A program made the position numbers and the translations under genes. From Arthrobacter sp. B3I4 (GTDB lineage Bacteria > Actinomycetota > Actinomycetes > Actinomycetales > Micrococcaceae): 64,000 nucleotides of DNA. The DNA is taken from positions 3,534,001 to 3,598,000 of the forward strand of contig NZ_JAUSYK010000001.1 in assembly GCF_030816855.1 (NCBI RefSeq), in the 5' to 3' direction. The notes beneath the pieces were generated by a model. The model had not been told where the DNA came from. It ran no database searches and worked only from the letters and a program-made list of their open reading frames with translations. Shown piece by piece: positions 12,526-22,835 of the stretch (positions are counted from its first letter, which is position 1; each line of letters opens with the position of its first letter).

Positions 12526-13419
12526 TCATAAATTCAGAGAAGCATGGGTGGCAAAATTCACGGAAGTATGCGCGTTGAAGGCCAGACAAGTCCTGCCGAG
12601 CAAAGCATCTACCGAAGCCTTGACGGCCAACGTCTCAGGCGCCCGAGCGGGGCGGACTATTCCAGCACCGTCGACCACAATATAGCCCCATTCGAACAAA
12701 GCATCACAACCCAGGTTGCAGACGAGCATGGCGGCAGAAAGATAATCAAGGCGCTCATTCTCACTACAACGGCTCCGCGGTTTGATATGGCCGGCGACCA
12801 GCAACCTTGCAGGCAGTTCCGCAGCGCAGATTGAGCATCGGCCGTGAGCCCTGCCTTGGAGCAAGTGTTGCCGAAGGTGAGCCTGTTCCGCTCGGACCTT
12901 CCGAAGGGCAGTCCTGTCCGTCTCCGCACCCCCCCAGAAGGAGTCCGGCCTGCCCAGAGAGCCGTCACCGCGAGTGAGGGTAACATGGTTTTGCAGCACA
13001 AAAGATAGGGCTGGAGACGCATCAAACTCTAGTCGGGACGCGTTAAGCAGCCAGAATCGATCGTTCAACCATAGAGTCAAAAGTGTCTCGCCCCCGCCAA
13101 CATAGCGGGGGATTCCGGGAAACCAAATTCTGCGATCTCCCCTTGTTCTTGCTCGATAAAGATTGGCCTTGGGCAAATCGACGGTATTGCCACCCAAGAT
13201 GATACTTGCCGGGAGGCGACGACCATTCGTCTTCCCGTCCCAGGGCTGCTCGTCGTACTCATGGATAGCAGGCTGAAGAAAGTCCCTAAATTCCTGGGTG
13301 GCATCTATGATCGAGTTACTTAGTCCATTTTCAGTCGGCTGCAGATAGCCGTAATCCACACGGATACGTTCCAAGAACTCGGTATTTGCCTCTTCAAAGC
13401 TATTCAGCGGCCTTGGCAT
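12526..13419 (-). CDS. HNH endonuclease with restriction-enzyme N-terminal domain
   Basis: This 297-residue protein ends with an HNH nuclease domain (about residues 195-253): CSICAAEL with paired Cys, AGHIKPRS with the catalytic His, and LVCNLGCDALFEWGYI. The N-terminal 130 residues (YGYLQPTENGLSNSIIDATQ; RRIWFPGIPRY; LLTLWLNDRFWLLNAS) clearly resemble the N-terminus of the MvaI/BcnI-type enzyme at 15364-16614. Start chosen: ATG at 13419 after GGGGAG; in-frame ATGs at 13446 and 13437 lack a site. It is divergent from the methyltransferase and probably a second restriction nuclease of the same system. Confidence 0.8.
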   Translation of the reverse strand: MPRPLNSFEEANTEFLERIRVDYGYLQPTENGLSNSIIDATQEFRDFLQPAIHEYDEQPWDGKTNGRRLPASIILGGNTVDLPKANLYRARTRGDRRIWFPGIPRYVGGGETLLTLWLNDRFWLLNASRLEFDASPALSFVLQNHVTLTRGDGSLGRPDSFWGGAETDRTALRKVRAEQAHLRQHLLQGRAHGRCSICAAELPARLLVAGHIKPRSRCSENERLDYLSAAMLVCNLGCDALFEWGYIVVDGAGIVRPARAPETLAVKASVDALLGRTCLAFNAHTSVNFATHASLNL

Positions 13420-13988
13420 ACTAGCTCCCCGTATCATCGTCGCCATTCAGGATGATGAGTATATGTGAAACAGCGCCTCTCACTTCTCAGGCTCTTCCGC
13501 GATCCATATGTGTCCCTAAAGGACCCAACGGATCCGTGACGGGAAGACAAGGAACAGGTACGCCTCAAGCTGATCGGATCTGGGACTCTTATTAGGCGGG
13601 ACCGCCCGGACGAAGAGCTGCCCCCCACTACACAATCGGATGCGTATCCACCGGACCGTCGAAGCCAGCGGCGGGCTGCCCTTATCGGCGACGTCAATCG
13701 CGTCCCACCGAGCACCTCCGCCGGGATGGGAGCAACATCGACTTCCTCTACCACCCCGTCGGACCAAGGCAAGAGATCCACGACGCGGGAAAATCCCAAA
13801 CTTTTCAAGCCGAGAAACCGTGACACTCCTGCCCGCTCATAGCCTCGTCATTCGCCGTCTCCGCATGCCTGCGAGTGTGTTTGCTCACGTTCAGCCGCCC
13901 TCCGGCCCGGGCGAACAAGCCGACGACCGTCCCGAGCCAACTGGCCTTCCTGGACTTTGTCGTTGCCGTGCGGCACAATGTAGACGTG
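13420..13988. other. Intergenic region between HNH nuclease and methyltransferase
   Basis: About 570 bases without a supported gene. The frames present are shadows lacking motifs. It must contain the divergent promoters of the nuclease and methyltransferase, and any C-protein-like control site, but no repeat stands out. The ATG at 13875 in frame with the methyltransferase would add 38 residues with no family support. Confidence 0.4.
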
Positions 13989-15386
13989 ATGAAATACGTA
14001 GACCTTTTCGCGGGCTGTGGTGGACTCTCCCTCGGCATCGAACGCGCCGGAGGAGAACTCGTCGTGGCCGTCGAAAAATCCGACATGGCCGCCCGGACCT
14101 TCTTCCATAACCTCGTAGACGACGCTTCTGACCTACATGCCTGGAACCAATACGTCGCATCACCCGTCGAGGAACAGGTACGCCGTGGGGTGCTGGTCAG
14201 GGAACTCAACGTCCTGCTCGGTCAGGACTCCCTCATGGACAACCTCGCAGCCGAGGGAATCGATTTGGTGGTGGGCGGTCCTCCCTGCCAGGGCTTCTCT
14301 CTGGCAGGGAGGCGGGATTCCGAAGACGTCCGTAACAAGCTCCCATGGGAATATCTGGAGTTCGTGGCCCGTACCAGACCGAAGGCAGTCGTCATCGAAA
14401 ACGTTGTCGGCATGAACCAGAAATTCAGCTCACAGGACGAATCGTCGTTCGTACAACTGCAGCTGGCACTGGCCAGGACTGAACCGGGTTACACGGTCCA
14501 GGGTGTTCAGGTCAATGCCATGCATTACGGTGCGCCCCAACACCGGCCTCGCTTGATGATCATCGCTGTGCGTTCGGACATCGCCGCATCGAAGGGCATC
14601 GAATCCACGGGCAAGCTCTGGAAATCGGATTTCCTCGACAAACTATCGCACCCGCTACCCGATCTGGCCCCGGTGCCCACCGTCTCCAGCGCTGACGTGA
14701 GGACCGTCGCCCAGGCTATTTCGGATCTTTCCCCTCACGCCCCGAGGGGCAATGGGCCCGCCAACAAGGACTATCGGCGTCAAATGCGCCACCCCGAATG
14801 GAAGCTGCGGCTCAAGCCCGGCCCGGAGGAACACAATCACGTACCCCGCAACCACGCGGCACGCACCACGGAACGTTTCCGCCTCTATCAGTATCTGGCC
14901 AAGAGCGGTCTCGACCAGCGCATCATCAGCCGCGCGGCCATGTTGTCCGAGTCGGATGCTGCCCTGTACGTCAAGACACAGCTCGTGGACGCGCCCCTTC
15001 CCGCTCTAGCGCCTGATGGAACGGAGCTGGCGACAAGCGTGGACGAGTTGTGCCAGCTCGTCCAAAAGCTCGCAACCAAGAAGCACTCACAGAAAGTACT
15101 CGGCTGGAGTCAGCCGGCCCGCACCGTCGTAACGCTCCCTGACGACTATGTCCATCCGGTCGAGCCTCGCATATTCACGGTGCGCGAAATGGCTCGCTTT
15201 CAGGGATTCCCGGCGGCCTTCGAGTTTCTAGGCAAGGAAACCACGGGCGCTCATCGCCGCCGCGTGGAAGTACCGCAGTACTCGCAAGTAGGAAATGCAG
15301 TCTCTCCCTGGCTATCGTTAGCCGTAGGCAACCGGATAGCGGCACTTTTGGGGGAAAAGCGAAGTGAGGGAACTGACCGACCGTGA
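13989..15386 (+). CDS. DNA (cytosine-5-)-methyltransferase
   Basis: This 465-residue enzyme carries the ordered C5-MTase motifs: I (VDLFAGCGGLSLGIERAGG, residues 4-22), IV (GGPPCQGFS with catalytic Cys100), VI (ENVVGM), VIII (QHRPRLMIIAVR), IX-X (QPARTVV; VREMARFQGFP; QVGNAVSPWLSLAVG). The target-recognising region lies between motifs VIII and IX and is long. It transfers methyl from S-adenosylmethionine to C5 of cytosine, protecting host DNA. Start chosen: ATG at 13989, three residues before motif I; GTG at 13986 is also possible. It overlaps the next gene by 23 bases, so both are made together. Confidence 0.92.
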   Translation: MKYVDLFAGCGGLSLGIERAGGELVVAVEKSDMAARTFFHNLVDDASDLHAWNQYVASPVEEQVRRGVLVRELNVLLGQDSLMDNLAAEGIDLVVGGPPCQGFSLAGRRDSEDVRNKLPWEYLEFVARTRPKAVVIENVVGMNQKFSSQDESSFVQLQLALARTEPGYTVQGVQVNAMHYGAPQHRPRLMIIAVRSDIAASKGIESTGKLWKSDFLDKLSHPLPDLAPVPTVSSADVRTVAQAISDLSPHAPRGNGPANKDYRRQMRHPEWKLRLKPGPEEHNHVPRNHAARTTERFRLYQYLAKSGLDQRIISRAAMLSESDAALYVKTQLVDAPLPALAPDGTELATSVDELCQLVQKLATKKHSQKVLGWSQPARTVVTLPDDYVHPVEPRIFTVREMARFQGFPAAFEFLGKETTGAHRRRVEVPQYSQVGNAVSPWLSLAVGNRIAALLGEKRSEGTDRP

Positions 15387-16614
15387 AGTAGAGAATATCG
15401 GCTTCCTTACCCGATACAGTCTGGACTTCGGGTTGTTGGAGCCGACCCTGACCGGTCTGGGCAAGGGAATCATGGACGCGACGGCGGAGTACAGGGCCTT
15501 CCTTAGCCGCCAGAAGATACATGACTATGATGCCCAGCCCAAAGGGCCAGACTACAAGCGCATGGTTTCAGCCAGGATTGTCACGCCGGCCGGCGACGTC
15601 ATCGAGGCACCGGCGAGCATGTATCGGCCAGCCACCAAGAACGGCGACCCCCGCGTGTGGTTTTCACGGATGAAGCAGTATTGTGCGCCGGGAGACATAC
15701 TCGTCAGCCTGTGGGTCGACGGTCACATCTGGGTGCTCAACGCTACCGGCGTCCGCTTTGGCGAGGCCGCGACTCGACTTAGCGCGTACAGCAAGTTGCT
15801 CCGCCCTCTGGTCAGCGGGAGGGAGAGCGTGTTCGAGGAACTCCTGGAGAAGCTACGCGAGATATCCGCGCGCGGATTCCTCCGCACCCTCAGGTCAGGC
15901 GACACAGGCATCGGCCATCTCCTCGAAACCGAGCTGGGCATCAAAGCGAATTCGAGCAAGAGCCCCGACTACAAGGGCGTCGAGATCAAGTCCACCCGCG
16001 GCACGGCAACCCGGACCCAAACACTTTTTGCCAAAGTGCCGGACTGGGATATTAGCCAACTCCACAGCTCCCGGCAGATGCTGCAGGAGTTCGGCTACGA
16101 CCGGGGCGACGACTTCAAGCTCTACTGCACGGTCAGCTCTAAAGCCTCCAATTCGCAGGGTCTAAGGCTTCAAGTGGACGATAAAGCGGGGTTCCTCCAC
16201 GAGGCTTCGAATCGTCCCGCTCTGGGCCGTCCCGTGACATGGCGGCTCGACGGCCTACGCGACGCCCTTGCAGAAAAACATGCCGACACTTTTTGGGTCA
16301 AGGCAGAGTCCCGGAAAGATGCCACAGGGGAATCCATCCACTTTCAGTCCGTCATGCAAACGACGAAGCCCATCCTGCAACAACTTGCCCCGATGTTAGC
16401 CGCCGGGACAATAACGGTAGATCACCTCATTTCCCGCAAGGGCAATAAAGTCACCGAGCGGGGGCCACTCTTTAAGCTGAACAGAAAGCACTTCGCCGAT
16501 CTCTTCGCTCCTCCGATCTACCACGATCTTCGCGCGGACGGACGACGGCCGGCAGCACCGAAACATCCAATGGACGCCCTACTCATCGAGAAACCCTTTC
16601 ACCTCTTCGATTAG
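15364..16614 (+). CDS. MvaI/BcnI-family type II restriction endonuclease
   Basis: This 416-residue protein has an N-terminal domain (1-130) shared with the HNH nuclease at 12526-13419. Its C-terminal domain has the MvaI/BcnI signature HLLETELGIKANSSKSPDYK with the PD-(D/E)XK active site Pro201-Asp202 and Glu207-Ile-Lys209, then KSTRGTATRTQTLF. MvaI cuts CC(A/T)GG and BcnI cuts CC(C/G)GG as monomers, so a CCNGG-type site is plausible. The GTG start at 15364 lies inside the methyltransferase gene. Its 3' end overlaps the convergent vsr gene by 36 bases. Confidence 0.85.
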   Translation: MRELTDREVENIGFLTRYSLDFGLLEPTLTGLGKGIMDATAEYRAFLSRQKIHDYDAQPKGPDYKRMVSARIVTPAGDVIEAPASMYRPATKNGDPRVWFSRMKQYCAPGDILVSLWVDGHIWVLNATGVRFGEAATRLSAYSKLLRPLVSGRESVFEELLEKLREISARGFLRTLRSGDTGIGHLLETELGIKANSSKSPDYKGVEIKSTRGTATRTQTLFAKVPDWDISQLHSSRQMLQEFGYDRGDDFKLYCTVSSKASNSQGLRLQVDDKAGFLHEASNRPALGRPVTWRLDGLRDALAEKHADTFWVKAESRKDATGESIHFQSVMQTTKPILQQLAPMLAAGTITVDHLISRKGNKVTERGPLFKLNRKHFADLFAPPIYHDLRADGRRPAAPKHPMDALLIEKPFHLFD

Positions 16615-17010
16615 TTTCTGACCCGCGTTCACTTCACACTCCCAGACCACGAGTGACTCCCACCCGAGAGCCTCTAGCTGTTGGAGCGCTTTCTCATCGC
16701 GGCTCTGGTTGCGTCGACGTTTTTCGGCCCAAAACTCCGTGTTCGACTTCGGCAATCGATCTCCAACCGAACACCGATGCCCATGCCAAAAGCAGCCGTT
16801 GACAAAGACCACTTTCCTGCGGCCCGCAAAGACAAGGTCGGGTTTGCCCGGGAGCCGCCGATCGTGAATCCTGTACCGATACCCCGCAGTATGTAACGCC
16901 TTCCGAAGCAGGAGCTCGGGCTTTGTGTCCTTCGAACGAATCTTGGCCATATGTGCGCTGCGTTGCTTCGCGCTCATGAAGTCCGTCACAGATTCAATCC
17001 TAGTTTTCAT
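16579..17010 (-). CDS. vsr: Very short patch repair endonuclease Vsr
   Basis: This 143-residue protein has the Vsr hallmarks: MSAKQRSAHMAKIRSKDTKP, KPDLVF with the metal-binding Asp58, and VNGCFWHGHRC with Trp75 and His76. Vsr nicks next to T:G mismatches that arise when 5-methylcytosine deaminates, and so offsets the mutation cost of a cytosine methyltransferase. Its presence next to a C5-methyltransferase and MvaI/BcnI enzyme is typical. The start is ATG at 17010; ATG at 16977 is an alternative. It ends inside the 3' end of the restriction gene. Confidence 0.92.
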   Translation of the reverse strand: MKTRIESVTDFMSAKQRSAHMAKIRSKDTKPELLLRKALHTAGYRYRIHDRRLPGKPDLVFAGRRKVVFVNGCFWHGHRCSVGDRLPKSNTEFWAEKRRRNQSRDEKALQQLEALGWESLVVWECEVNAGQKLIEEVKGFLDE

Positions 17011-17252: not shown

Positions 17253-19343
17253 CTAAGCGCGCAGCACCTCGTCTTCGTCGATGGACGCCCTCCCGGCGTA
17301 GACATCGTCGTCCTCTTCCTCGTAGATGGGGGCGACCGTCGGAGCTATCCGCTCAGCGTGGCGGTTCCAGAATTTCAGGTCGAGGGAGACAGCGTCGAGG
17401 GTTTCCCATTCCTTATTCTCGAGGGTGAGTCCCTCTTTCTCGATGAGGCTTTCGCCGCTGGGCAGTTCAATGCTCTTGAGACGGTCGGTGATCTCCTTCA
17501 ACGCAGCTGCCTCCTCGACCAACTTCCGGCGGTAGAGATCGCGTGCCACGTAGGGGTCAGAAGAGGGGTCGATCCGCGGGGACCAGTTTTCGTTCTTGTA
17601 CCTGTACAGGTCGTCCGTGGTCAGAAGCGCACGGTCTGCGGCGCTGGCAGACCCGGCGGCTTCTCCGTCGAGCAGGCGCCGTGGCGCGCGGTCGCCCCGG
17701 ACATCCACTACGATCTGGGCCAGCTGTTGGATCCCGTTCTCGCTCGCGACCATCTTCTGAATAATCTGTTGCGGCTCGGGCATATACTCCCCGTTGACGC
17801 GCGTGTTGGACCGGATGAGCAGTGCGCCGCCTTCTCCGTCCTTCAGGCTCATCACGCCCTCGACTAGGCAATAGAGTCCGAGAGCGCCAAGCTCGGCGGC
17901 ATCGGCGGAGACTTCCCTGCCATTGTCTTCGAAGATGGCCCGCTGCTCCCGGATCTTCTGGATGGCGGCGTCCCTGATGTCCAGGATCGGGCGACGGGTC
18001 AACAGAGCGTTCTTCAGGGTCGGTGTGGCAAGCACGCGCTGCACGGTTGAGCGCCGGCCCTTGAACCCGGAATCGAGCCCCTGACCGAGTGCAATCCTGT
18101 TCACGCGCATCGCGGTGTCCGCCGCCAGAGCCGCGCGTTCGGACTTCAGGGGCTTCTTGCCAGTGAGGGAGTGGACGGCCGTATTTACGACTCGGGCGCG
18201 CTTCGGGTCCAGCGGGGAGATCAGTGCCTCCGAAGCGAGGAGCAGAACCTCGTCGGGGTGCAGGCCGCTGAGGGATACCGCACCGGGGGACCCGGATTCG
18301 TCCTTACCGTTTTCAGACTGTAGGACTTTGAAGACCTCCTCCGCCGAGAGGCCGTCGACCGGAGGCATCATGTCCGCGGTGTGAACGGCCTCGAGCGCGA
18401 TGCGCGCCTTGAGCGCATTCTCGGTGCTGTCAAGGAACGGCAGGGGCGGTTCAAGGTGGATGTGTCCGACGAGGGAACGGCGAACTTCCGCGAAGGGCGG
18501 CTGGTTTTCGCCGGGGCGCAGCCCAATCTTGCGGTAACCGACGATGATCTGCGCGCGGGGCATGACACTGGAGCGAAGGCGAGCCGCTGCGATCTCGCCG
18601 GTCTCGCTCTCCACGTCCGCTTCCCCGGAGTCTCGAAGATCGATCAGTTCGTGCCTGAGTTTGTTCTCGGTGGCATCCCGCTGCAAGTCGAAAAGGACCT
18701 CGTCGATATCGATGCCGGATCCGCGTTGCGCGCCGACCGTGCGACTAAACCCGTCGGTGGCATCGAGGATGCCGATAGTGTCATTGTCACCCAGCGCGAG
18801 GCGGGTAATTGAAAGCAGCCCGGGGGTCTCGATGCCGCGCATCGGAATGGAGCGGGAATGCGGGTTCTTGTCCCAGATGCCCTTGGTCTGCGACCGCAGC
18901 GAACGAACAACGAAGTCGGGATCCTGGTTCGAAAGGCCGAGTACGGGCTGGCTGGAGAGCGGCGTCTCGTACCGCAACGCCTGCCCGGACTTCCAAGCGC
19001 GGTCCCCCTCAAAGCGGATGTTTTCCAGGGAGGGGACAATACGCCAAGTCACGACGTCGACTTCGACGAAGGTGATTTCGTATTGGCCGTACCGGCGCGT
19101 CTGGGCCGACCGCGCGGCTTCCTTCAGCTGGCTTAGATCGGCGGCGGAGCGCGCAACCGTTTCAGCGTCGAATGCTTGCAGGTCAAATTCCCGCATCAGG
19201 AGCTCCACTGCGGCGGCTCGAGCCTTGACATTCTGGGTGCGGAGATTCGAGCACACCAGATCGTAGGGCGTCGCGTACTCGTTGTTCTCCCGGCTCTGTT
19301 CGAGGTGGCGGGCTACTGTGGCTGCGCGATTTCTTTCGGACAT
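17253..19343 (-). CDS. Large unknown protein of restriction island with possible ParB/DGQHR-like motif
   Basis: This 696-residue protein is not a family I can name. The one suggestive motif is DNDTIGILDATDGFSRTVGAQ (DGFSR at 197-201), which looks like the D-G-x-x-R core of ParB/Srx and DGQHR-domain proteins such as DndB. The rest is mainly helical, with an acidic C-terminus (IYEEEDDDVYAG). Start chosen: ATG at 19343, which follows GAGAGG; the frame is open to 19505 but the added residues look unnatural. It lies just beyond vsr on the same strand, so it belongs to the island. It could be a DNA-modification accessory protein or a separate defence gene. Confidence 0.6.
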   Translation of the reverse strand: MSERNRAATVARHLEQSRENNEYATPYDLVCSNLRTQNVKARAAAVELLMREFDLQAFDAETVARSAADLSQLKEAARSAQTRRYGQYEITFVEVDVVTWRIVPSLENIRFEGDRAWKSGQALRYETPLSSQPVLGLSNQDPDFVVRSLRSQTKGIWDKNPHSRSIPMRGIETPGLLSITRLALGDNDTIGILDATDGFSRTVGAQRGSGIDIDEVLFDLQRDATENKLRHELIDLRDSGEADVESETGEIAAARLRSSVMPRAQIIVGYRKIGLRPGENQPPFAEVRRSLVGHIHLEPPLPFLDSTENALKARIALEAVHTADMMPPVDGLSAEEVFKVLQSENGKDESGSPGAVSLSGLHPDEVLLLASEALISPLDPKRARVVNTAVHSLTGKKPLKSERAALAADTAMRVNRIALGQGLDSGFKGRRSTVQRVLATPTLKNALLTRRPILDIRDAAIQKIREQRAIFEDNGREVSADAAELGALGLYCLVEGVMSLKDGEGGALLIRSNTRVNGEYMPEPQQIIQKMVASENGIQQLAQIVVDVRGDRAPRRLLDGEAAGSASAADRALLTTDDLYRYKNENWSPRIDPSSDPYVARDLYRRKLVEEAAALKEITDRLKSIELPSGESLIEKEGLTLENKEWETLDAVSLDLKFWNRHAERIAPTVAPIYEEEDDDVYAGRASIDEDEVLRA

Positions 19344-19955
19344 GAAAAAGCCTCTCGGGCTAGCTGGGACCGGAGTCCCGACCGTAACCGCTCTGGTTCC
19401 GGCTTCGGGTAGCCCGCCGAGGCGAGTAACCCATATAGGCTCGGACACCCAGATGGGTGCCATGGAGCACATGGGGCACGCACTTCCCGATCGGCGTTCA
19501 GTCACCCATGCTTACGGTCCGGCCGGAGCTGGAGCGCTTCGCGTGTACTGACTTGGTCGTTCCCCGCTTACTGGAAAGTACGTGTCATGCATCTCATAAG
19601 TTAGGACATAAGCCCTTTCCCGTCAATGGCACCGGGCGTCGCGCCGCGAGGCCCGGTGCCATAGGCGGCCCCGGCGACGGCTGCTGCCCTGATCGGTGCA
19701 AACTCGGATGCCCGGCCCCGGCCTTACCGCAACCCCCTACGGCGTGGCGCCACATCGAGTGGCTCCCAAAGCTTGACGACCACGGGATTCCCGGCAGGCT
19801 GCTCGTCGAGTGAGAGCAACTAATTCGCGTTTTTGGACCGTCCAGCAGCGGGGTCCACCTGAGTCTCGAGCTGCGGACCGGAGGTGTCAGATCCGGAGTT
19901 GCAGCCGGGACCGTCAGGCTTTGGCATGCAGGCGGGTGGACTAGCTTTCGTCATT
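19344..19955. other. Gene-free stretch upstream of the 696-residue gene
   Basis: About 600 bases with no supported gene. It must hold the promoter of the minus-strand 696-residue gene. Short frames on the plus strand have no motif or ribosome binding site. Confidence 0.4.
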
Positions 19956-19959
19956 CATC

Positions 19960-20290
19960 TTCACTTCCACGCCGTGGGGTTTGACGGGCCCGGTTCGGCG
20001 ATGGCAGTGGTCCCGTGGCGTTCCGTGGCGCCCATGTAGGTGGTGGTGATAACACGCAGTCTGGCCCCGCGTTCCTTGACCCGTTGCAGAGCTGGCTCCA
20101 GGAGCCTCAGTCCGGTCCAGCGGACGAAGGCGCAGAGCAGGTCCACCGTGTTGGCAGACTTGGTCTCGGTCCTGAGCTCTGCGGCGAAGTTGGGATCGTC
20201 CTTGTTGTTGGTGAGCAGGGCGGAGTCGCTCAGCATCGTGGTGGGCCGGTGGAAAACTGGAACTGGGCAACTGACGAACTGCCCCTCGCC
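19960..20290 (-). pseudogene. Fragment of a PLD-type DNA helicase/nuclease N-terminal region
   Basis: The reverse strand reads SALLTNNKDDPNFAAELRTE, then VDLLCAFVRWTGLRLLEPAL and VKERGARLRVITTTYMGATE. This is the start of the phospholipase-D-like domain that heads large helicase proteins with DUF3427 in many defence islands. After MGATERHGTTAIAEP the homology breaks off, well before the HKD catalytic motif and the helicase. The fragment is therefore a non-functional relic. Confidence 0.7.
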
Positions 20291-20512: not shown

Positions 20513-22102
20513 CTATCCCGACAGGTACTCATAGACTGCGGCGTGAGCTGCGTTGTGCATTCTGGAAGCCCGTACTGGCCCAATGTATGGAGCTGCCTTC
20601 AGAACTCCCACGTCAGCCTTTAGAACATCTCCGATTGTCCTGAGGCCCACACTCCCCATTGCCGTCCTCATGAAATCAGAAAGGTCCAGCACGTTCAGCG
20701 AGCGGCCGAGTTGTTCCTGAACTGAAGCATTCGGCTGGCTGAAGGCCAAAGACTCATCCTCGACAAGCGATCCGTAGAAGGGGTGTTTAGCTCCATATTC
20801 AATCATTCTCTTCAATGATAAGCTGTCCATGATGCTAGCTCCAAACTTGATTGGAGAACTATCCAGAGAAAACTGACATCCAAGATTTAGAATATACCGA
20901 GTGCCAATTTCGCTTCGCGTTGCTTTAATCCCAGCCGTTCCTTCTTGAAGGATGCCGCTGTAGCAAAGGAGTCGTAACGACTCCTTCACAGCAGCTGGTG
21001 CATCGCGGTGAATCCAAAGATACGAAGACGTTGCGCCAGGGTTCCTCAGGTTACGCGCATATAAAGCTGGTAGCACTTCCTGCTCAATAAATCGCCGACC
21101 CCACGATATGAGCGGCTCATGACCAGGATATTTATCGGCGAGCAGAGAATGCTCGGACCAAATCTCCTCTCGATAGTAATTCCGGAAGATTAGCTCTGCA
21201 CTGGCTGTATTAATCTTGCTCATGGTCTGCATCGTTTTCAGCAGTATTCGCGGATTGCCGGTAGCAGCGTATGCCAAGACATCAAATACCTGCCCATTCC
21301 GCTTGATATCGGAGATAAGCTCTGGCGCCTGCTTGAAAACGATTTCGCGCAGTTGCTCTCGATATTCTGGATCACTAACATTCCTGTCTACAGACACAAA
21401 TGTCGCATCATGCTGCGGCTGAAAGTATTCCCCGAACGATGTGACGCCCGGATAGACGGCGGCCTTTACGGCCAAGTAGGCACTTCGAAGAGATCTCATG
21501 AGCGTGAAAAACTCACGCTGTTGCGCGGGTATGAAGACATGTGCCGCTTCATCGATAAGAATTATTGTGCGAGTCAGATTATTTTCTTCAGAAAACTCCT
21601 GAAGGGCTTCAAGAAACAACTCGGGATCCGGCGCCTCGGCCAGGTCAGGATCGGCACCTTCATTGCGCCAGGAGTTTTCATAATCTACCGCCAATCTCTC
21701 CATCACCGACACACCGCTTTGGTCCCTGTTTGCCAGGCGATCAAGTGAGGAACCGACTCGTAAAGCCAAACCAAACTCGCTAGCGGACTTGAGAAAACTT
21801 GCCGCTATCCTCGACATCATCCAGGCACGGAACTTTTCTGGAGTTGGGTTCGAAATGAGTGTAGCAACGGCGAAAGTTACATAGACTGGCATTATGCGTT
21901 TAACCGCAAAGTCTTGCCGCAGGCGCTGCTCCGCAACACGCATTAAGAATGACTTCCCGACGCCACGACTGCCCTCAAGTACGGCCGGCGTTCGCCCCAA
22001 AAGGGCATCAATCACTTTATCGTCAGCAACACCTTTTACATAGTATTCCAAGACTTCATCACGCCGGAAGTCTTCAGTCCTGAAGAGAAAGTCACTGGCC
22101 AT
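20513..22102 (-). CDS. AAA/STAND-type ATPase with C-terminal helix-hairpin-helix domain
   Basis: This 529-residue protein has a Walker A at 44-51 (GSRGVGKS) and Walker B at 179-188 (TIILIDEAAH). An Orc/Cdc6-like arginine region follows (TGNPRILLKTMQ, about 285). The middle is a winged-helix-like part. The C-terminal 45 residues (LRTIGDVLKADVGVLKAAPYIG and following) look like a helix-hairpin-helix DNA-binding module. G+C is clearly below that of the surrounding chromosome. The start ATG at 22102 overlaps the upstream HEPN-like gene by 11 bases, so the two are translationally coupled. It may sense invader nucleic acid and control the partner; this is inference. Confidence 0.75.
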   Translation of the reverse strand: MASDFLFRTEDFRRDEVLEYYVKGVADDKVIDALLGRTPAVLEGSRGVGKSFLMRVAEQRLRQDFAVKRIMPVYVTFAVATLISNPTPEKFRAWMMSRIAASFLKSASEFGLALRVGSSLDRLANRDQSGVSVMERLAVDYENSWRNEGADPDLAEAPDPELFLEALQEFSEENNLTRTIILIDEAAHVFIPAQQREFFTLMRSLRSAYLAVKAAVYPGVTSFGEYFQPQHDATFVSVDRNVSDPEYREQLREIVFKQAPELISDIKRNGQVFDVLAYAATGNPRILLKTMQTMSKINTASAELIFRNYYREEIWSEHSLLADKYPGHEPLISWGRRFIEQEVLPALYARNLRNPGATSSYLWIHRDAPAAVKESLRLLCYSGILQEGTAGIKATRSEIGTRYILNLGCQFSLDSSPIKFGASIMDSLSLKRMIEYGAKHPFYGSLVEDESLAFSQPNASVQEQLGRSLNVLDLSDFMRTAMGSVGLRTIGDVLKADVGVLKAAPYIGPVRASRMHNAAHAAVYEYLSG

Positions 22103-22835
22103 TTTCGGTCCTTGGGGTTTCGAGAATTTTTCTTACCGACGGCAAATGTGCAATTGTTTCCAACATAGTGTTTTCAACACTACCGCTATCACTGGGTAAG
22201 AGTTCTTGACCATAGCGGCTAAAAAAGAGTACTTGGACGCATTCGATCGCATCGCTGGCCAGCTTACACCACTGCTCCAAGGTATTCTGTGAATAGACAA
22301 GCTGACTGGGGATTGTGCTTGTCGATGACTCTTTTCCGTGAATGAACTGCGAGCAGTCCCGGTACACTGCAGCGGCTTTGGCTTTGTACGACTGAGCATC
22401 AACGACTGCAGACTGATTGAAGGCTCCGACAAAGTCACTGGAAAGTACTCCGTCTGCTTCATTAAGCGCGGCAGACCATGAGAAGTCATACGAATCAGCT
22501 AGCCATTTCCGGCGCTTTAGTTCATTTGCAGAGAAGAAGATGGCAGCGAAGCTCAGTTCCAAGTACAGGCGCAAACCCGCAAACGCTGCCCCATAGTGAC
22601 CGCCACAGGCCAGATAAATGGCACGCCCAAACTCACGACGGCCGTTAATTATGAGCGTCCCCTCCGGCTCATTTGTTAGGAGGTCTTCCCATGCCTTCAT
22701 TGCATGGTCCAAACTGAGCAATCTACCTACGGATCCGCGCTGTTCCCTTAGCGCCTCATCAATTACACCTTTCTGATTCTCTTGAATCTTAACGAAGATG
22801 TCATCGATGGTTCCAACGGGTGAACCTTGGGCCAC
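22092..22835 (-). CDS. Helical protein with HEPN-like Rx6H motif, partner of the ATPase
   Basis: This 247-residue all-helical protein contains YRDCSQFIHGKE with Arg159 and His166, fitting the R-x(4-6)-H active site of HEPN RNases. Before it lies a segment (AAFAGLRLYLELSFAAIFFS) of the kind seen in HEPN-like proteins. No signal peptide or clear transmembrane helix. The GTG start at 22835 follows AAAGG. It is the first gene of a two-gene unit with the ATPase, sharing its low G+C. A toxin or effector role controlled by the ATPase is the working guess; an alternative is a non-catalytic helical adaptor. Confidence 0.65.
   Translation of the reverse strand: MAQGSPVGTIDDIFVKIQENQKGVIDEALREQRGSVGRLLSLDHAMKAWEDLLTNEPEGTLIINGRREFGRAIYLACGGHYGAAFAGLRLYLELSFAAIFFSANELKRRKWLADSYDFSWSAALNEADGVLSSDFVGAFNQSAVVDAQSYKAKAAAVYRDCSQFIHGKESSTSTIPSQLVYSQNTLEQWCKLASDAIECVQVLFFSRYGQELLPSDSGSVENTMLETIAHLPSVRKILETPRTENGQ

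Follow-up and report, generated by a model that had tools for sequence, protein, structure and literature searches.

A HEPN-Fold Protein and an Orc/Cdc6-Like ATPase as a Candidate Two-Gene Immunity Module in Arthrobacter sp. B3I4 and Other Bacteria

INTRODUCTION

Here, we consider a pair of overlapping genes in Arthrobacter sp. B3I4 that encode a HEPN-fold protein and an Orc/Cdc6-STAND AAA+ ATPase, and we compare the pair with the closest described systems. The genes lie in a stretch of 64,000 nucleotides (contig NZ_JAUSYK010000001.1, positions 3,534,001 to 3,598,000 of the forward strand), the whole of which is referred to as the window. In PARIS, which consists of AriA and AriB, an ATPase sensor restrains a suicidal, RNA-cutting effector, and it is in this mode of working that the window pair may be analogous. 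The parts differ, however, because PARIS has an ABC-type ATPase, AriA, and a Toprim nuclease, whereas the window pair has an Orc/Cdc6 AAA+ ATPase and a HEPN protein. In RADAR, RdrB is an adenosine deaminase, and the RdrA chains are larger than the window ATPase. The Toprim nuclease of PARIS, AriB, cleaves tRNA (PMC12409363; statements credited to papers by PMC number, here and below, hold for the portions of their text that were available).

Fusions of STAND ATPases to HEPN domains (PMC3710099) likewise join a HEPN effector to an NTPase of the STAND type, with a role in biological conflict, but the window has two separate genes, an Orc/Cdc6-like core, and a helix-hairpin-helix (HhH) tail. Other ATPases of the Orc/Cdc6 AAA+ clade, SspC among them, belong to phosphorothioate and HerA/FtsK systems that counter invaders (PMC10853773). 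Their partners are restriction endonucleases, HerA, or phosphorothioate modification proteins, and the available portion of that paper shows no arrangement in which a HEPN partner completes a two-gene unit. Orc/Cdc6 ATPases in conflict systems are already in print (PMC10853773 and PMC12839542). Finally, DS-41, an experimentally validated antiphage system (PMC13092281), and Sll1717 share an ATPase signature with the window family, a likeness drawn through the models DS41_1 and NF047389.

The pair falls outside the families in the catalogues that we tried. PADLOC-DB 2.0.0 (2023) gave no clear model match, with nothing up to an E value of 1 for the ATPase and HamC2 (0.0023) as the best match for the HEPN protein; across the aligned relatives, the best values were 1.3e-5 (mad8, ATPase) and 0.0023 (HEPN). 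At the curated level of NCBIfam, neither gene belongs to a family, as judged for the window's HEPN protein and for the ATPase together with its closest clade (clade I, below). At E values up to 0.01, DS41_1 matches 49 of 64 aligned ATPases (best, 9.8e-10) and mad8 matches 43 of 64, while ATPase_Sll1717 (NF047389) matches 54 of 64 (best, 5.5e-12). The window ATPase itself scores 11.3 bits against DS41_1 (NF053860; cutoff, 370) and 14.9 bits against NF047389 (cutoff, 75). Among 18 records or genomes, none exceeded 370 bits with DS41_1 (maximum, 28.3), and the matches mostly covered about 100 N-terminal residues; a control set of 14 genomes yielded one match, also below the cutoff. Membership of DS-41, Sll1717, or MADS was therefore rejected, the similarity being weak and mostly N-terminal. 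A search of the open literature, by title and the start of the abstract, found no description of this HEPN-ATPase pair. Thus, HEPN-STAND fusions and Orc/Cdc6 conflict ATPases are known, but this two-gene combination is unnamed in the catalogues tried.

We propose, at a probability of roughly 60%, that the pair is an immunity module of two genes, self-contained and horizontally moving, whose ATPase senses an invader and licenses a suicidal HEPN RNase. The computed evidence consists of two predicted folds, intact motifs, strict pairing, parallel divergence, and a wide but patchy spread.

RESULTS AND DISCUSSION

The HEPN-fold protein

Both open reading frames (ORFs) of the pair are intact. An initial annotation, made from the window sequence alone, had described two coupled genes of lower G+C content, and this description holds, at 0.500 and 0.506 for the two genes versus 0.653 for the window.

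20513 to 22102, minus strand: gene of the Orc/Cdc6-STAND AAA+ ATPase, 529 amino acids, from the ORF; predicted sensor or regulator
22092 to 22835, minus strand: gene of the HEPN-fold protein, 247 amino acids, GTG start, from the ORF, AlphaFold model, and structural matches; predicted effector RNase
22092 to 22102, minus strand: 11-base overlap of the two genes, from the ORF coordinates
22335 to 22364, minus strand: HEPN motif YRDCSQFIHG, residues 158 to 167, with Arg159-x6-His166 at the end of the helix spanning residues 141 to 165, from the close-clade alignment
22557 to 22571, minus strand: Arg89-x3-Glu93, residues 89 to 93, an invariant polar pair (65/65 each) in the helix spanning residues 81 to 103 of the model

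The AlphaFold2 (AF2) model of the first protein is all-helical, with a predicted local distance difference test (pLDDT) score of 95.3, and it contains the four-helix HEPN core. Its best VIA structural matches are 2hsb, 2q00, 1ufb, and 1wol. Of these, 2hsb, the top match, and 1wol are labeled HEPN, and 2q00 and 1ufb are structures that we take to be HEPN proteins as well. A Foldseek search with the same model gave no structural match below an E value of 0.001, the lone HEPN-labeled row among the 50 listed being 1wol (E value, 1.7), and no Pfam HEPN model recognizes the window protein.

In HEPN RNases, the catalytic motif lies at the end of helix 3 and an acidic residue lies in helix 2 (PMC3710099). 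In the window protein, Arg159-x6-His166 supplies the Rx4-6H motif at this place, and Glu93 supplies the acidic residue of helix 2, although in the order R-x3-E, where PMC3710099 gives E-x3-[KR]. In the close-clade alignment, Tyr158, Ser162, His166, Gly167, Arg89, Glu93, and Asp117 are each conserved in 65/65 rows, and Arg159 and Arg207 are each conserved in 64/65. These patterns indicate that the motif is under selection in the close clade. In L021, the only close locus with a changed Arg159, the ATPase gene is frameshifted as well; as a single case, in a set of loci screened in part for frameshifts, it would fit decay of the pair or an error of assembly. The initial annotation had called the protein HEPN-like on the strength of the Arg-His motif in an all-helical chain, and both the fold and the conservation of the motif now support that call. 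Judging by the model, the first protein is probably an RNA-cutting protein of the HEPN fold.

The Orc/Cdc6-STAND ATPase

For the second protein, Walker motifs and a C-terminal HhH domain had been noted along with a STAND or AAA identity, and each of these was recovered.

21950 to 21973, minus strand: Walker A, GSRGVGKS, residues 44 to 51; G44, G47, G49, and K50 in 63/64 rows (window included), one row being gapped
21539 to 21565, minus strand: Walker B, IILIDEAAH, residues 180 to 188, with D184-E185; D184 and E185 in 64/64
21248 to 21259, minus strand: GNPR, residues 282 to 285, presumably the STAND GxP or sensor 2 position; G282, P284, and R285 in 64/64
20516 to 20695, minus strand: C-terminal HhH domain, approximately residues 470 to 529, resembling the C-terminal domain of the RNA polymerase alpha subunit (alpha-CTD), from HHH_5 and profile comparison

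The Pfam model ORC-CDC6-like scores 41 bits against the window ATPase, versus a gathering score of 27. The AAA+ core, with Walker A and B intact, has fold matches to Orc1/Cdc6 and to 2qen/2fna, and fold comparison also brings out a likeness to origin-binding and TnsC-type DNA-bound ATPases. Residues 361 to 411 form strands and helices that fit a winged helix, and the 2qen/2fna alignment, from a search with the whole chain, extends to residue 414. In the tail, the HHH_5 match (0.0046) is below its cutoff; a profile of the 64 ATPase rows matches RNA polymerase alpha-CTD chains (best, 4.6e-5), and the NCBIfam rpoA model matches up to 22 of 64 members. By its sequence, the second protein is an Orc/Cdc6-STAND AAA+ ATPase, related to DNA replication and immune receptor ATPases.

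Pairing and spread

A scan with an ATPase profile, covering 84,980 genomes that each represent one species, confirmed at least 176 relatives, of which the best 80 were kept. Loci with an ATPase above 200 bits are called close (n = 66, window included). ORFs at the relatives' loci were delimited by greedily selecting long frames rather than with a gene caller. L001, which duplicates the window, was left out of the counts throughout, L002 was left out of the structure alignments, and L082, with a short partner, was left out of alignment A7; the tree omits ATPases shorter than 450 amino acids, and L101 and L102, which fall far outside the three clades, were also dropped.

A HEPN gene lies directly upstream of the ATPase gene on the same strand in 65 of the 66 close loci, window included, and the contig of the 66th begins 220 bases before the ATPase. 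Their pairing thus goes beyond chance. The genes are mostly within about 30 bases of each other, and six larger values partly reflect the choice of start. No third gene is generally common to the 66 loci, the next commonest neighbor cluster reaching 6/66. Pairwise distances among the HEPN proteins track those among the ATPases (r = 0.893, n = 64; largest of 1,000 permutations, 0.168), as joint inheritance predicts.

Relatives of the ATPase occur on 24 contigs filed as viral and 5 records in a plasmid collection, and a scan of a phage collection found none. This distribution bears on a rival explanation, namely, that the genes are a toxin-antitoxin or island maintenance pair in which the ATPase checks a HEPN RNase toxin, the pair keeps a mobile island in place, and phage defense is secondary or absent. 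The two-gene operon with the toxin-like gene first, the patchy spread, and the plasmid and viral-filed records are all as such a pair would have them, and a HEPN toxin with a partner gene is a known toxin-antitoxin class (PMC7641770). However, a 529-residue ATPase with conserved Walker motifs would be an expensive way to make a plain antitoxin, the antitoxins of HEPN/MNT pairs are nucleotidyltransferases (PMC7641770), and distant kin of the ATPase occur in defense systems. We therefore regard this explanation as rather unlikely.

The pair is rare and patchily spread, as far as the sampled-genome searches reach: among 65 ATPase rows of at least 450 residues, the 56 with a named phylum represent 11 phyla, yet at an E value of 1e-20 the ATPase was found in only 1 of 396 sampled genomes of the window's own phylum, which is the window's own genome. 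Within the window's family, the count is 2 of 295, the second being a weak piece with stops, and with the HEPN profile a single weak fragment (6.3e-6) came up in one other genome from the phylum. These searches score few candidates per genome and have the window's own genome as their sole positive control, and so the absences are soft. Such rarity speaks against an ordinary regulatory or replication-linked host pair with no role in conflict, as do the low G+C content, the relatives on plasmids and viral contigs, and the lack of fixed neighbors. The alpha-CTD-like tail and the Orc/Cdc6 fold do occur in transcription and replication proteins, and housekeeping genes are among the neighbors elsewhere, but we consider a host function of this kind very unlikely.

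Three clades and their HEPN partners

The ATPase tree has three groups, of which clade I contains the window. In clade II (9 loci; L066 to L073 and L094), whose hosts include a Methanophagales archaeon, the HEPN gene is upstream in 9/9, and profile comparison places the clade I and clade II partners in one family (99.9%). Clade III (33 tree rows) has a different HEPN family, located downstream of the ATPase in 30 rows, with the copy in L082 short. With tblastn, the gene was also found in L100 and, one or two genes further on, in L085; L086 ends at a contig edge. RHxxxH and ExxxR are invariant in the 29 aligned clade III partners, 7 of which match HEPN_RiboL-PSP (best, 3.5e-4). Treating the clade I and clade III proteins as one detectable family was rejected at a profile comparison probability of 0.2%. 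In our view, the strongest argument for joint action of the ATPase and the HEPN protein is that this ATPase type occurs beside two kinds of HEPN protein and in two gene orders.

In a broader idea, the immunity module would belong to a new family of innate immunity systems. An Orc/Cdc6-STAND ATPase would hold HEPN RNases under its control, unrelated partners having been acquired on opposite sides of its gene, and its alpha-CTD-copying tail would be a bacterial integrated decoy that reports phage attack on host transcription. In this full form, we hold the idea to be a long shot.

Ahead of the ATPase gene, 12 clade III loci, several of which are nearly identical, share a related gene, which the three plasmid records annotate as an N-6 DNA methylase or methyltransferase. 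These loci (L004, L005, L006, L097, L099, L104 to L108, L110, and L111) have a three-gene row of methylase-like gene, Orc/Cdc6-like ATPase, and HEPN protein with RHxxxH, which may possibly be a further unnamed defense system. The ATPases of L004 to L006 contain a zinc ribbon.

Proposed function

In the immunity module that we favor, the Orc/Cdc6-STAND ATPase would serve both as sensor and as switch. Once it had bound ATP and its HhH tail sat on DNA or on a structure made by the invader, it would change state or oligomerize and so license its partner HEPN endoribonuclease. Arg159 and His166, aided by Glu93 and Arg89 of helix 2, would then cut host or phage RNA, whereupon translation would stop and the infection would abort. 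The physical complex, the trigger, the RNA target, the RNase activity, and the antiphage outcome are all drawn from families that work alike. We also count in support the weak kinship of the ATPase to defense system ATPases, the restriction-modification genes beside the pair in the window, and the cluster that contains the window's C5 methylase, which occurs in 5/66 close loci, window included. It is possible that the tail senses invading DNA, as the initial annotation proposed, although its likeness to alpha-CTD would also allow for other ligands, such as transcription proteins or the phage proteins directed against them.

Two points temper this proposal. First, shared descent alone would also yield the correlation between HEPN and ATPase distances. 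Second, the motif histidine is present in 9/9 clade II partners, but the arginine is retained in 1 of them, with Lys in its place in 2 and either Ser or Gly in the other 6, which cuts against a simple RNase reading; the Tyr and the helix-2 Arg-x3-Glu are kept. This loss of the arginine in 8 of 9 partners while the other residues stay would suit an alternative in which the HEPN-fold protein serves the ATPase as an adaptor or as a subunit that binds nucleotides, rather than being an RNase, and in which the pair acts on DNA, blocking the replication or transcription of the invader. The same alternative draws on the resemblance of the ATPase to origin-binding and TnsC-type proteins and on the absence of the motif from some HEPN families (PMC3710099). 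Nevertheless, the near-invariance of Arg159 and His166 in the window's clade and the canonical RHxxxH and ExxxR of all aligned clade III partners argue against it, and we find it quite unlikely.

Neighboring genes

The initial annotation had placed the pair in a defense island. For the window itself, this is a fair description, with a C5 DNA methylase (13875 to 15386), an MvaI/BcnI-type restriction enzyme (15364 to 16614), a Vsr endonuclease (16579 to 17010), and a short piece that resembles the start of a type IV restriction enzyme. Elsewhere, a scan of 113 of 227 near ORFs at 63 of 64 loci found very mixed neighbors, housekeeping genes among them. The scanned ORFs were picked by hand, roughly one on each side and not always the nearest, and there was no control set; given this and the mixed neighbors, we claim no enrichment in defense islands.

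The type IV piece is a 91-residue ORF (19961 to 20236, minus strand) that matches positions 21 to 94 of a 945-position model (7.6e-23), and it looks like a remnant of a larger gene. Between it and the Vsr gene, a 750-residue protein (17253 to 19505, minus strand) has no significant Pfam, PADLOC, or NCBIfam match; across 66% of its length, it shares 33% identity with hypothetical proteins encoded by two Streptomyces plasmids. A likely HNH protein (12526 to 13446, minus strand), judged so from the annotation of its relatives, and the MvaI/BcnI-type enzyme (plus strand) have related N-terminal 130 residues (40% identity, 1.7e-26), which suggests that nuclease domains were swapped behind one common domain. 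Window positions 5.7 to 25.2 kb have no match at an E value of 1e-20 in the stretches taken from four members of the genus in which the LacI gene (about 26122 in the window) is retained.

On plasmid p2 of Planktothrix agardhii (L002; 372 to 14189), SspB-SspC-SspD precedes the HEPN-ATPase pair on one strand, and a PbeA-like helicase, an MzaB-like ATPase, a Cas4-like DUF2779 protein, and a phospholipase D protein follow it. A phosphorothioate link as a general rule was rejected because SspB-SspC-SspD (phmmer) is not among the neighbor clusters listed for the other close loci. A search of the window's genome for SspD, run without a positive control, was empty.

Implications

If the immunity module proposed here is real, then a replication initiator-like ATPase and a HEPN nuclease form a sensor-effector combination that is present in at least 11 bacterial phyla and lies outside the catalogues tried. 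As to the object sensed, the alpha-CTD-like tail provides a concrete hypothesis. Moreover, the presence of two HEPN families without detectable kinship beside one group of ATPases would demonstrate that such sensors can swap effectors.
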